Shown here in pieces: positions 540 to 26,409 of a stretch of 36,627 nucleotides of DNA (position 1 is its first letter; each line of letters starts with the position of its first letter). This DNA comes from Kutzneria sp. 744. Its GTDB lineage: Bacteria > Actinomycetota > Actinomycetes > Mycobacteriales > Pseudonocardiaceae. Where the stretch lies: contig NZ_KK037166.1 of NCBI RefSeq assembly GCF_000568255.1, positions 6,685,792 through 6,722,418 of the forward strand, written 5' to 3'. Position numbers and translations under genes: made by a program. The notes beneath the pieces were generated by a model that had not been told where the DNA came from, did no database searches, and saw only the letters and a list, made by a program, of their open reading frames with translations.

Positions 540-812
540 TCACCTTCCGAGCGGGCCGCGACCCATCCTGAGCAGGATCAGCGCGATGTCCTTGCCCTCC
601 GGGCCGAGGCCCTCGCGGTAGCGGGCCAGGATGTCGATCTCCCGGTTGTGCACGATCTTCGTGCCGCCGTTGGCCATCCGCGTCTTGCCGACGATGCCGG
701 ACACCTCGGCCCGCCGCCCGATCAGCCGGATGATCTCGGCGTCGAGGTGGTCGATCTCCTCACGCAGCGAGGGGATGTCCGGGGTGGGCTGGTCGCTGAC
801 TGGCGTGCTCAC
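540..812 (-). CDS. aroQ: Chorismate mutase, AroQ type
   Basis: The 90-residue protein has the all-helical AroQ pattern. A first helix reads LREEIDHLDAEIIRLIGRRAE, with the Arg of the LREEID segment and the LIGRR arginines in the places where the family binds chorismate. A second segment includes KTRMANGGTKIVHNREIDIL, and a short C-terminal helix follows. Known role: rearranging chorismate to prephenate, the branch toward phenylalanine and tyrosine, in the cytoplasm. The size fits the short monofunctional actinobacterial enzymes, which often need DAHP synthase as a partner for full activity (family knowledge). The GTG start has GGAGGA about 8 bases upstream. About 50 bases upstream of the start lies a terminator-like hairpin, preceded by an aromatic-rich leader peptide, so control by attenuation is likely. 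Confidence 0.9.
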   Translation of the reverse strand: MSTPVSDQPTPDIPSLREEIDHLDAEIIRLIGRRAEVSGIVGKTRMANGGTKIVHNREIDILARYREGLGPEGKDIALILLRMGRGPLGR

Positions 813-860
813 TGATCTGTCCTCCGTGCTCGGGTCGGAGATCCGGTGGCCCCGGCAGCA

Positions 861-895
861 CAGAAGCCCCGGGTCCGAGGACTCCGGGGCTTCTG
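861..895 (-). terminator. Attenuator terminator hairpin before chorismate mutase
   Basis: A perfect 12-bp stem (861-872 with 884-895) closes an 11-base loop. It lies between the leader peptide stop and the chorismate mutase start, so it is inside the mutase transcript rather than at its end. There is no long U tract, which is common for actinobacterial terminators. Bases 879-887 (loop plus four bases of the 5' arm in the transcript) are exactly complementary to 929-937 in the leader peptide coding region. Confidence 0.7.
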
Positions 896-911
896 CGGTG
901 GTCGTCTGGCG

Positions 912-974
912 CTACGCGACCACGGGAGCCGGAGTCCGGATCCCGTAGAAAAACTCGTAGTGGCGCGCGCACAT
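912..974 (-). CDS. Leader peptide rich in Tyr and Phe, upstream of chorismate mutase
   Basis: This 20-codon frame has ATG at 974-972 and a TAG stop at 914-912. Residues 5-10 are His-Tyr-Glu-Phe-Phe-Tyr, so four of six codons are for the end products of the chorismate mutase branch. No Shine-Dalgarno is seen, but a -35-like TCGACT (1005-1010) and a -10-like GAGACT (981-986), 18 bases apart, would start the transcript at or next to the ATG, which would make it leaderless. A terminator hairpin and then chorismate mutase follow. I infer that the ribosome on these codons senses charged Tyr and Phe tRNA. The frame is short, so codon statistics give no support; the argument rests on its composition and the RNA pairings around it. 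Confidence 0.65.
   Translation of the reverse strand: MCARHYEFFYGIRTPAPVVA
922..946 (-). promoter_or_regulatory. Protector/pause hairpin of the attenuator
   Basis: On the minus strand ACGGGA (946-941) pairs with TCCCGT (927-922), and CCGG pairs with CCGG inside it around a 3-base loop. It locks up the antiterminator strand 929-937. Its 5' arm begins within the second Tyr codon of the leader peptide (945-947), so a ribosome paused on the aromatic codons would open it. Confidence 0.55.
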
Positions 975-980
975 GCCGGG

Positions 981-1010
981 AGTCTCGCACAGCCGGCGGA
1001 GTCCAGTCGA
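981..1010 (-). promoter_or_regulatory. Putative promoter of the leader peptide and chorismate mutase
   Basis: TCGACT (as -35) and GAGACT (as -10) are spaced by 18 bases, and the predicted start falls six to seven bases later, at the leader ATG at 974. The hexamers are only partial matches to consensus; the leaderless geometry is the main support. Confidence 0.4.
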
Positions 1011-3499: not shown

Positions 3500-3530
3500 T
3501 GTAATGGTATGGATCGGGGGTTTGGTAGCG

Positions 3531-4730
3531 ATGCTCGCTGACGTGTTCGGCGCCGACCAGCGGCGACATGTGGTGCGCAGCGAGCGCGGTTACCTGGCCT
3601 TTGTGCCGCCGAAGCTGCCGCCCGACATCGCCTTCGACACCGCGCTGGTGCGCCGACTGTCCATTGCCGACCGCGCGCTGGGCCAGCTCGCCGGCGTCGG
3701 CCGCACGCTGCCCAATCCGTACCTGCTGGCCCAGGCCATGGTGCGACGCGAGGCCGTGCTGTCCAGCCGGATCGAGGGCACCGTGGCCACGCTGTCCGAC
3801 CTGGTGCGTTACGAGGTCGAACCGGCGGCGGCCCGGACCGACGACGTCGGCGAGGTCTACAACTACGTGTCCGCCGTCGAGCACGTGCTCAAGCCGGACC
3901 GGCGGCTGCCGCTGAGCCTGTCGCTGCTGCGGGAGGCCCACGAGATCCTGTTGTCCGGCGTGCGCGGCGGCTATGCCACGCCCGGCGAGTTCCGGCGTTC
4001 CCAGAACTGGATCGGCCCGCCCGGCTGCGTGCTGGACACCGCCACCTACGTGCCGCCGCCTCCGGACCGGATGTGGGAGTGCCTCGACGCGTTCGAGAAG
4101 CACATGCACGTCGAGCACGACCTGCCGCCGCTGATCACCATCGCCTGCCTGCACTACCAGTTCGAGGCCATCCACCCGTTCATCGACGGCAACGGCCGCG
4201 TCGGCCGCCTGCTCGTCGCGCTCCTGCTCGTCGAGTGGGGGCTCCTGCCCGCGCCGCTGCTGGACCTGTCCGCCTACCTGGAGCCGCGGCGCGACGAGTA
4301 CTACGCGCGGCTGCTCGCCGTGAGCATCGACGGCGACTGGTCCGGCTGGCTCTCCTTCTTCCTCGACGTCGTCGCCAACCAGGCCGCCGACGCCCTGCGC
4401 CGCGCCCAGGCCTTGCAGACCCTGCGCGAGGAACTCCGGGGCCGCGTCACCAACGTCCGGTCCTCCAGCCTCGCCCCGCGCCTTGTCGACGCCCTTTTCG
4501 AGTCGCCGGCGATGACCATCAACCGTGCCGCCGCCATGCTCGGCGTGACCCACCGCGGCGCCACTCTCAACGTCGATCGGCTCGTCGACGTCCGGTGTGC
4601 TGACCGAGGTCGCCAGCACCGGCCGGTCTCGTCGCAGCTGTTGACATCGGTTGCCGGGTGTTGGCTGAACGTACTGCGTTCGGTTTCCGCTCACTCACCC
4701 GAAGCAAGGTCTCAGATACCCCGCGCGTGA
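3531..4730 (+). CDS. Fic-domain protein (AMP transferase family), 3' end frameshifted
   Basis: The protein carries the full Fic signature HPFIDGNGRVGRLL, with the catalytic His and the phosphate-binding loop, and an N-terminal SSRIEGT. The latter matches the inhibitory (S/T)xxxE(G/N) helix that lies ahead of the Fic core in self-inhibited members of the family. These enzymes usually transfer AMP to a target protein. After the core comes a winged-helix-like region (MTINRAAAMLGVTHRGATLNVDRLVD). From there the frame looks wrong: one extra base near 4591 would restore GVLTEVASTGRSR, the expected end of the wing, and that frame then stops at 4642-4644. I chose the ATG at 3531 because it has a G-rich ribosome site; 3504 is also possible. 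The Fic core looks functional, but the DNA-binding tail is probably damaged. Confidence 0.8.
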   Translation: MLADVFGADQRRHVVRSERGYLAFVPPKLPPDIAFDTALVRRLSIADRALGQLAGVGRTLPNPYLLAQAMVRREAVLSSRIEGTVATLSDLVRYEVEPAAARTDDVGEVYNYVSAVEHVLKPDRRLPLSLSLLREAHEILLSGVRGGYATPGEFRRSQNWIGPPGCVLDTATYVPPPPDRMWECLDAFEKHMHVEHDLPPLITIACLHYQFEAIHPFIDGNGRVGRLLVALLLVEWGLLPAPLLDLSAYLEPRRDEYYARLLAVSIDGDWSGWLSFFLDVVANQAADALRRAQALQTLREELRGRVTNVRSSSLAPRLVDALFESPAMTINRAAAMLGVTHRGATLNVDRLVDVRCADRGRQHRPVSSQLLTSVAGCWLNVLRSVSAHSPEARSQIPRA

Positions 4731-25075: not shown

Positions 25076-26176
25076 TCAGGATGAACGACGGTAGAAGGGC
25101 AGCTCGACGACGTCGACCGGGGTGATCGTGCCCCGGATGTCGACGGCGAGCGCGGAACCGGGAACGGCCCGGTCGGCGTCGACGTAGGCCATCGCGATCG
25201 CGTGGCCCAGCGTCGGCGACGGCGCGCCGCTGGTGACCTCGCCGATCCTCGCACCGTCGGCCGGATCCACCACCGGGTACCCATGCCTCGGCCCGCGCCG
25301 GCCGTCGGTGACCAGGCCGACCAGCTTGCGGGCCGGCGTCTCGGCCGAGGCCTTGGCCAGGGCGGCGCGGCCGACGAAGTCGCTGGGCTTGTCCAGCTTC
25401 ACCACGCGGCCGAGGCCCGCGGCGTACGGCGTGAGTTCGGTGGTCAGCTCGTTGCCGTAGAGCGGCATGCCGGCCTCCAGGCGCAGCGTGTCGCGGCACG
25501 ACAGTCCACACGGGAGGATCTCGCCCGAGTCGGCGACCGCGGACCACACGGCCTCGGCGTCCGCCGGCGCCACGAACAGCTCGAAGCCGTCCTCGCCGGT
25601 GTAGCCGGTGCGGGCCAGCAGCGCGGGCCGGCCGGCGACGGTGGTGGGGTAGGAGGCGTAGTACTTCACGGTCGACAGGTCGGTCGGCGTGAGCGGGGCC
25701 AGCAGCGACACCGCGCGCGGGCCCTGCACGGCGATCAGCGCGTACTCGGTGGAGGCGTCGCGGACCTCGGTCTCGAAGTCCTCGGCCCGGTCGAGCAGCT
25801 CGCCGGCCACCAGGGCGGCGTTGCTGGCGTTGGCGACGACCATGTAGTCCTGCTCGCCGGTGCGGTAGACGATCAGGTCGTCCAGGATGCCGCCGTCGTC
25901 GCCGCAGATCATGGTGTACCGGGCGCGGCCGACGCCGATCGCGGAGGCGTTGCCGACCAGGGCGTAGTCGAGGGCCTGGCCCGCCTGCGGGCCGGAGAGC
26001 ACGATCTCGCCCATGTGTGTGAGATCGAAGAGGCCGGCGCCGGTGCGCACGGCGTTGTGCTCGGCGACGTCACCGGTGTAGCGCAGGGGCATCTGCCAGC
26101 CCGCGAAGTCGGTGAACTTGGCGCCGAGGCGCTCGTGCACGTCGTGCAGCGGCGTGCGGCGTGGATCGGTGCCCAT
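25076..26176 (-). CDS. gcvT: Glycine cleavage system T protein (aminomethyltransferase)
   Basis: The 366-residue enzyme takes the aminomethyl group from the H protein, releases ammonia and makes 5,10-methylene-tetrahydrofolate. Family marks are [35 protein letters not shown] (with the Asp that acts near folate in this family), [34 protein letters not shown] and [22 protein letters not shown]. The start ATG at 26176 follows the glycine riboswitch by about 30 bases. It is first in gcvT-gcvH-glyA and should be made when glycine is high. Confidence 0.97.
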
Positions 26177-26206: not shown

Positions 26207-26388
26207 TCCCCCTCTGTCATGGGCCTGAGAGTTTCACCGGCGAACCGGCTTTCCCCTTGGGCGAGGCGCGATGGGCACGCCTGCTTTTCAGAGTCGCCTG
26301 TCCCGAGCGGTAGGGGTGCCTGAGAGATTCCGGGGAGGATTTGCTCCTTCGGCGCCTGCCCGACCTCGACAGGACTCTCCCGCTCGGT
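26207..26388 (-). promoter_or_regulatory. Tandem glycine riboswitch upstream of gcvT
   Basis: Two aptamers are seen on the minus strand. The first (about 26388-26304) is closed by a stem formed by the CGAGCGG-type ends and has GGGAGAGTCC, GGCGCCGAAGGAGCAA and AATCTCTCAGGCACCC. The second (about 26303-26207) has GACTCTGAAAAGCAGG, GGGGAAAGCC and GAAACTCTCAGGCCCATGA. These are the conserved glycine-riboswitch blocks, present twice as in cooperative tandem forms. The class usually turns gcv genes on when glycine binds. Confidence 0.95.
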
Positions 26389-26409
26389 GTGAGCAGCGAA
26401 GATGTACTT

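Follow-up and report, generated by a model that had tools for sequence, protein, structure and literature searches.

The window, by which we mean the whole stretch of 36,627 nucleotides analysed here, encodes on its minus strand a chorismate mutase preceded by a short reading frame with a cluster of aromatic codons and by a set of overlapping RNA hairpins. These can be described by four segments, following the scheme common to the E. coli pheA attenuator. The features are as follows, in the order in which they would be transcribed.

981..986, minus strand: -10-like hexamer GAGACT, 6 nt 5' of the leader start codon, with a putative leaderless transcript start near 974
974-912, minus strand: leader frame of 20 codons, MCARHYEFFYGIRTPAPVVA, ATG to TAG, with the stop codon TAG at 914-912
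953-945, minus strand: control codons UUU UUC UAC, within the leader frame
936..948, minus strand: segment 1, the 5' arm of the protector, beginning one base before the last Tyr codon
917..937, minus strand: segment 2, the 3' arm of the protector (932-920) together with the 5' side of the antiterminator (937-929 and 923-917)
879..904, minus strand: segment 3, the 3' side of the antiterminator (904-898 and 887-879), which includes the 5' arm of the terminator (895-884)
861..895, minus strand: segments 3:4, intrinsic-terminator-like hairpin with a 12-bp stem and a 3-bp inner stem
825-821, minus strand: GGAGG, a Shine-Dalgarno-like site for the mutase that none of the three attenuator hairpins includes
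812-540, minus strand: chorismate mutase of 90 amino acids, GTG start, homologue of the M. tuberculosis intracellular mutase Rv0948c

The gene product matches Pfam family PF01817 (CM_2) with 37.2 bits and the NCBIfam models NF005894 and TIGR01808 with 115 and 96 bits respectively, both over the cut-off, and comparison with PDB entry 2qbv (Rv0948c) gives 108 bits (E 1.6e-30). Chorismate mutase commits chorismate to phenylalanine and tyrosine only; DAHP synthase feeds tryptophan, phenylalanine, and tyrosine. The 20-codon leader frame, and a mutase after it with a ribosome site of its own, are as a preliminary description of this DNA had proposed. The aromatic residues Tyr, Phe, Phe, and Tyr fall at leader codons 6-10, and thus in five codons rather than the six given there; in 20,000 mononucleotide shuffles of positions 812-1074, at least four Phe or Tyr codons within five, in any minus-strand frame, arose three times. 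The leader peptides have no matching family in NCBIfam or Pfam.

The protector (948-920) is a hairpin of 12 bp with a predicted energy of -19.1 kcal/mol that takes in the last Tyr codon (947-945); it was previously drawn at 922-946, and while the overlap with the aromatic codons stands, the hairpin is longer. The antiterminator (937-879, -27.9 kcal/mol) had been recognized from a 9-base pairing of 937-929 with 887-879, which is exact, but it too is longer, and a second helix that pairs 923-917 with 904-898 had been missed. The 5' arm of the terminator is caught between the two antiterminator helices, and this second helix eases a weak point raised in the preliminary description, namely that the antiterminator competes with only four of the 12 terminator pairs. 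The 12-bp stem assigned to the terminator (895-861, -30.2 kcal/mol) is strong and needs no revision. Since protector, antiterminator, and terminator overlap, they are mutually exclusive. The leader RNA (973-855) folds with -66.4 kcal/mol, compared with -46.1 +/- 3.9 kcal/mol for 200 dinucleotide shuffles (z -5.3), none of which was as low. A search of the whole window with Rfam at gathering score returned two glycine riboswitch matches only and none to an amino-acid leader family, these families being the trp, Phe, his, and leu leaders and so on. An ordinary tandem glycine riboswitch occupies 26207-26392 on the minus strand, directly before the glycine cleavage T-protein gene (25076-26176).

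In 85 aligned loci, the 12 nt 3' of the terminator stem contain 29% U as against 8% in the next 30 nt, with no unbroken U tract. Such a U tract is weak or modest, though the enrichment starts directly after the stem, and it counts against reading the leader as a transcription attenuator. It would suit control of translation, in which the mutase ribosome site is masked by the last hairpin or by some alternative fold, or in which the leader feeds ribosomes to the mutase; a small separate hairpin is predicted locally over the GGAGG in the window (801-862, minus strand), and mycobacterial cysteine attenuators act on translation, according to excerpts of PMC13236596. However, the GGAGG at 825-821 lies about 36 nt past the terminator hairpin and is not part of any of the competing helices, the leader stop is about 100 nt from the mutase start, and the U enrichment follows the stem without a gap. 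We reject the idea that the attenuator hairpins themselves hide the mutase ribosome site, since the site is outside them, and for this reason we favor transcriptional control and regard control at the level of translation as very unlikely.

Conservation of the leader and covariation of its helices

A protein scan of named genomes provided 22 relatives of the mutase, and 21 of these have the leader frame, namely members of Kutzneria, Lentzea, Solihabitans, Saccharothrix, Saccharopolyspora, and Crossiella, and one labelled Nocardia; it is absent from Antrihabitans, the one exception among the 22. A covariance model, R1, was built from 10 sequences, and others were realigned to it because MAFFT misplaced the terminator end. 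R1 matches 383 of the 390 genomes of the window's family and all 46 of its genera (E <= 0.01), and the mutase protein was found in 386 of the 390. Three of the seven family genomes with no R1 match (G036, G192, and G199) are also without a mutase match, and in G277 the mutase is kept but its start closely follows a -10-like box with no leader between, such that the leader has likely been lost. The expectation that related genomes keep both the leader frame and the paired bases is borne out by these counts, and by covariation of the three helices across families as described below.

A second model, R2 (72 sequences), matches 333 of 397 genomes in a sample of the order, and 71 of 86 genera (E <= 0.01), a count which includes weak matches and 79 genomes of the window's own family, and which may be too high because some weak matches are probably to the terminator only, among them many with E of about 0.001-0.005 in those genera of the Mycobacterium family other than g53. 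Thirty genomes of other families, chosen because they matched, all scored E <= 1e-6 when rescored, and their sequences were read. Genus labels beyond the named relatives are inferred, with the term Mycobacterium-like resting on mutases of which that of L196, with 139 bits against Rv0948c, is an example. Elsewhere in the Mycobacterium family, seven mutase loci from genera that we take to be Rhodococcus-, Gordonia-, or Corynebacterium-like (L235, L236, L237, L241, L242, L243, and L245) show no such leader. In some genomes the leader has probably been lost and the mutase kept, which counts against the attenuator model. Two Mycobacterium-like mutase leaders seem to be decaying: as judged by eye, the frame survives in L221 but the terminator stem there seems to be gone, and L222 no longer has the usual stop or one of its Phe codons.

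For comparison across families we used an alignment, A7, from 86 sources: one locus per genus for 45 of the 46 family genera (g41 was left out), the 30 other-family loci, and 11 others, with false class-level matches, L221, and L222 left out. L211 has no match in A7, and L174 has a second, reverse-strand match that was kept in the pair counts (86 rows) and dropped for permutation, folding, and codon counts (85 loci); omission of L220, in which no start codon was found, leaves 84 leaders for leader counts. The mutase follows the leader in 86 of 87 chosen loci (the 85 alignment loci plus L209 and L211, with nine false class-level matches excluded), and the exception has DAHP synthase.

The three control codons are strongly conserved. 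Position 1 encodes Phe in 81 of the 84 leaders, position 2 encodes Phe or Tyr in 74, and position 3 encodes Tyr in 81; all but one leader (83 of 84) have Phe or Tyr at two or more of the three positions, and there is no Trp at any of them or at the codon before in the 84 mutase leaders. Conservation is lower at the first Tyr (codon 6), a position that holds Phe or Tyr in 37 of 84. Leaders begin with GTG in 68 cases and with ATG in 16, and in 80 of the 84 a -10-like hexamer, [TCG]ANNNT, lies 6 or 7 nt before the start codon, which is true of 1392 of 23203 ATG or GTG triplets (6%) in all fetched loci. A distance of 6-7 nt from the -10 hexamer to the start codon is the spacing expected for leaderless transcripts, and the leader frame is therefore probably leaderless.

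We also note a preference for rare codons at this place (956-951 in the window, and the aligned leaders). Of the 84 leaders, 77 use the rare UUU as first Phe control codon, and the codon before it, where it encodes Arg, is the rare CGA in 31 of 34 cases; in the window's pcrA, which is adjoined by a gene for a Fic/DOC-family protein (3504-4730, plus strand), UUU codes for one of 27 Phe residues and CGA for one of 74 Arg residues. This preference may reflect slow codons or the need for an unpaired A/U-rich stretch.

All three helices covary between families, and control pairings do not. In A7, 14 of the 25 pairs of the protector and terminator show double changes, with 149 double-changed cells compared with 40 in shuffled alignments and a covariation score of 0.234 compared with 0.104 when shuffled and no more than 0.051 on slid structures; A7 was fitted to these two helices, and leans to them, but not to the antiterminator. 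For the antiterminator, each locus's own segments pair with -23.6 kcal/mol on average as against -19.3 kcal/mol when permuted (z -12.3, with none of 3000 and none of 5000 permutations as low), and for three control pairings z is +0.5 to +2.9; the permutation ignores relatedness, so these z values serve for guidance and should not be read as probabilities. The lower antiterminator helix gives z -6.4 among 40 other-family loci but z +0.4 among the 45 family genera, within which it is nearly invariant and has no covariation signal, a point that counts against the attenuator model; the upper helix has a signal in both sets (z -3.0 and -3.1). Column counts for the antiterminator agree, giving 25 double-changed cells in A7 compared with 7.6 when shuffled, and one such cell within the family. 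A chance origin for the arrangement was rejected on the basis of the shuffled folding, the shuffles of the Phe/Tyr cluster, and the conservation.

The conservation extends to the peptide, EFFYGxRTPAPV, including its Pro-rich tail, which is unusual for an attenuator leader and raises the alternative that the nascent chain, rather than uncharged tRNA, stalls the ribosome. Leaders that are frameshifted after the Tyr-Gly codons (L091, L098, L099, L144, and L255) nonetheless keep the RNA and lose the peptide tail, an argument for RNA pairing, and against an arrest peptide, as the reason for the conserved RTPAPV; the sequence of the protector and antiterminator arms lies in the codons of this tail, so that pairing accounts for its conservation, and codon content tracks the downstream enzyme as discussed below. 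On this indirect test, in which natural frameshifts drop the tail and keep the RNA helices, we reject an arrest-peptide leader as highly improbable. A constitutive terminator or Rho-linked early stop, accompanied by an incidental short frame, would be in keeping with a M. tuberculosis transcriptome that the title of PMC10937400 describes as dominated by incomplete transcripts, but it seems hardly credible here, as it leaves unexplained the Phe-Phe-Tyr conservation, the covariation of the antiterminator, and the match of the codons to pathway position.

Ribosome stalling modelled by masked folding

The RNA of each of the 84 leaders was folded up to segment 3 under a ribosome-sized mask, using three wider footprints and a 26-nt mask as given in excerpts of PMC13236596. 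With no ribosome, the protector forms in a fraction of 0.66 and the antiterminator in 0.14 on average. With the A site at control codons 1, 2, and 3, the antiterminator fraction is 0.70-0.71, 0.59-0.71, and 0.45-0.58 respectively for the three wider footprints, falling to 0.00-0.02 once the A site has moved to codons +4 to +9 and standing at 0.13-0.21 at the stop codon. The 26-nt mask gives 0.71, 0.54, and 0.35 at the control codons but still 0.45 at the stop codon, and the off state therefore depends on the width of the footprint or on the protector re-forming after release. Stalls 5' of the Phe-Phe-Tyr trio give 0.43-0.53, so that the model is selective rather than exclusive. Single leaders, such as L135 and L206, deviate in that the antiterminator is favored even without a ribosome.

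In this model the best stall sites are at and just before the Phe-Phe-Tyr trio, and with the three wider footprints the control codons are placed such that a stalled ribosome is predicted to free segment 2 and a finishing one to cover it. The preliminary description had suggested that stalling on the aromatic codons frees the antiterminator, and the masked folding agrees, although the first Tyr that it counted among them is the less conserved and the best sites are at and just before Phe-Phe-Tyr. Its further suggestion, that full translation leads to termination, is favored by the wider masks and less so by the 26-nt mask, as the stop-codon fractions given above show.

We consider it very probable that the leader is a ribosome-mediated transcription attenuator that sets chorismate mutase expression by the supply of Phe and Tyr. 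The grounds are the anatomy, the conservation, and the covariation, which are observed, and the stall positions, which are modelled; the 5' end, termination in vivo, and the response to the amino acids are what we infer from them. RNA polymerase would begin at the leader start codon or close to it, and a ribosome would load onto the 5' end directly. With charged tRNA-Phe or tRNA-Tyr in short supply, the ribosome would stall at UUU-UUC-UAC and cover segment 1; segment 2 would then pair with segment 3 as the antiterminator, and transcription would enter the mutase gene. If both charged tRNAs were plentiful, the ribosome would move on towards the stop codon and cover segment 2, leaving the terminator 3:4 to form. 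In the absence of translation, the protector 1:2 would form, and the terminator next. Judged by its sequence features, the leader appears to be a new family of ribosome-mediated attenuators of the trp/phe type.

Codon content, pathway position, and known systems

The element spans one family, much of its order, and Streptomyces-like genomes, and includes genomes whose mutase is close to Rv0948c. In a sample of the class that includes the window's order, 117 of 345 genomes match at E <= 0.01, a level at which the model over-calls, with nine of 20 fetched loci (L208, L212-L217, L223, and L224) having no leader. Streptomyces-like genomes have genuine leaders, for example MQQLTFVFTYGTGPSGCHGRAA, with the mutase downstream, and a leader with Phe-Thr-Tyr-Gly precedes the best mutase match in 15 of 15 such genomes (13 found by script and two by reading); these 15, and 18 genomes of family f31, were chosen for a listed model match, so that fractions among them are biased rates. 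A sample of the phylum gives 8 matches among 296 genomes at E <= 1e-5, at which the model under-calls, as Streptomyces-like genomes such as G761 and G802 are missed though the leader is present. Two further families with aromatic leaders before the mutase (L233 and L238; L239) are also missed by the model. At L233, L238, and L239 the leaders are built differently (TGFFYG, TGFFYR, and RFVFAYAYAF), and their hairpins differ as well.

Short aromatic leaders also occur before DAHP synthase (Pfam PF00793) in one family, inferred to be Streptosporangiaceae-like, with for example FWFWYG, WSFWYG, and FWRFYG, and the sole phylum match outside the class is likewise an aromatic leader before DAHP synthase. 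These are as follows.

L266-L276 and L278-L283: leaders that lie 143-217 nt upstream of the start of DAHP synthase, for example MRTAFWFWYGDGPVRWTVRPQMLR, then a hairpin
L292: MNGYFGFWFFYGGDSPA, likewise upstream of DAHP synthase, from a genome that does not belong to the class

Trp, Phe, and Tyr are all present in 17 of 17 readable DAHP synthase leaders, a fraction that comes from 18 genomes chosen for a listed match, with L277 left out of the reading because the contig ends there. At two DAHP synthase loci of another family (L284 and L285) there is no clear leader, and at L286-L288 the match begins inside the protein and the stretch read is too short for a leader to be judged. By eye, the sequence at locus L209 can be drawn as a protector and an antiterminator in two parts.

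These leaders suggest a simple codon logic: since DAHP synthase feeds Trp as well, and the mutase only Phe and Tyr, the leader codons differ accordingly. We think it rather more probable than the contrary that the Actinomycetota have an old, vertically inherited set of aromatic attenuators whose codons match their place in the pathway, with Phe and Tyr codons before the mutase in Mycobacterium-like, Micromonospora-like, and on to Streptomyces-like genomes, and Phe, Trp, and Tyr codons before DAHP synthase elsewhere. If so, ribosomes would sense all three amino acids at the first step of the pathway, and Phe and Tyr at the branch point. The mutase and DAHP synthase leaders form a natural comparison, in which codon content tracks pathway position, and the element offers a defined RNA for testing and likely a control point for producers of aromatic-derived compounds.

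We found no description of a Phe/Tyr leader before chorismate mutase in the literature searched. A 2005 survey of Actinobacteria reports no conserved RNA structure upstream of phenylalanine and tyrosine operons, among others, in the excerpts cited (PMC1262725); eight S. lividans leaders are named in the text of PMC8079986, as excerpted, and none of them is for Phe or Tyr; and in term searches of the main text of papers dealing with translation and termination in M. tuberculosis, Rv0948c is unmentioned in PMC13236596, PMC4633059, PMC9094748, and PMC10937400. The authors of the preliminary description were not aware of such a leader being described, and the literature searched agrees with them on this point, but C. 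glutamicum does have a known attenuator with Phe-Tyr-Phe, which precedes a DAHP synthase.

That attenuator, aroR, which precedes the DAHP synthase gene aroF, is the closest described system in the excerpts cited (PMC11802643, PMC4046766). Both are actinobacterial leaders, with a Phe-Tyr-Phe peptide in the case of aroR, that precede a gene of the aromatic pathway, and aroR is described as ribosome-mediated attenuation (excerpts of PMC11802643 and PMC4046766); they differ in that aroR controls DAHP synthase and is said, in the same sources, to respond to Phe and not to Tyr. The locus L241, which we take to be Corynebacterium-like, has a mutase without a leader. A short frame (leaderless in S. 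lividans), hairpins, and a terminator are shared with S. lividans trpL, ilvL, and leuL (PMC8079986, excerpts), and a short frame, hairpins, and a terminator with the M. tuberculosis ilvB1 attenuator (PMC13236596, excerpts), although as described there these serve other amino acids and operons. E. coli pheL likewise combines a Phe-coding leader with attenuation before a chorismate mutase, in that case one that is bifunctional with prephenate dehydratase (PMC11802643, excerpts). Compared with the pheA system, the element described here is without an Rfam match, precedes a monofunctional mutase of the Rv0948c type, carries codons for both Phe and Tyr, and is probably leaderless.
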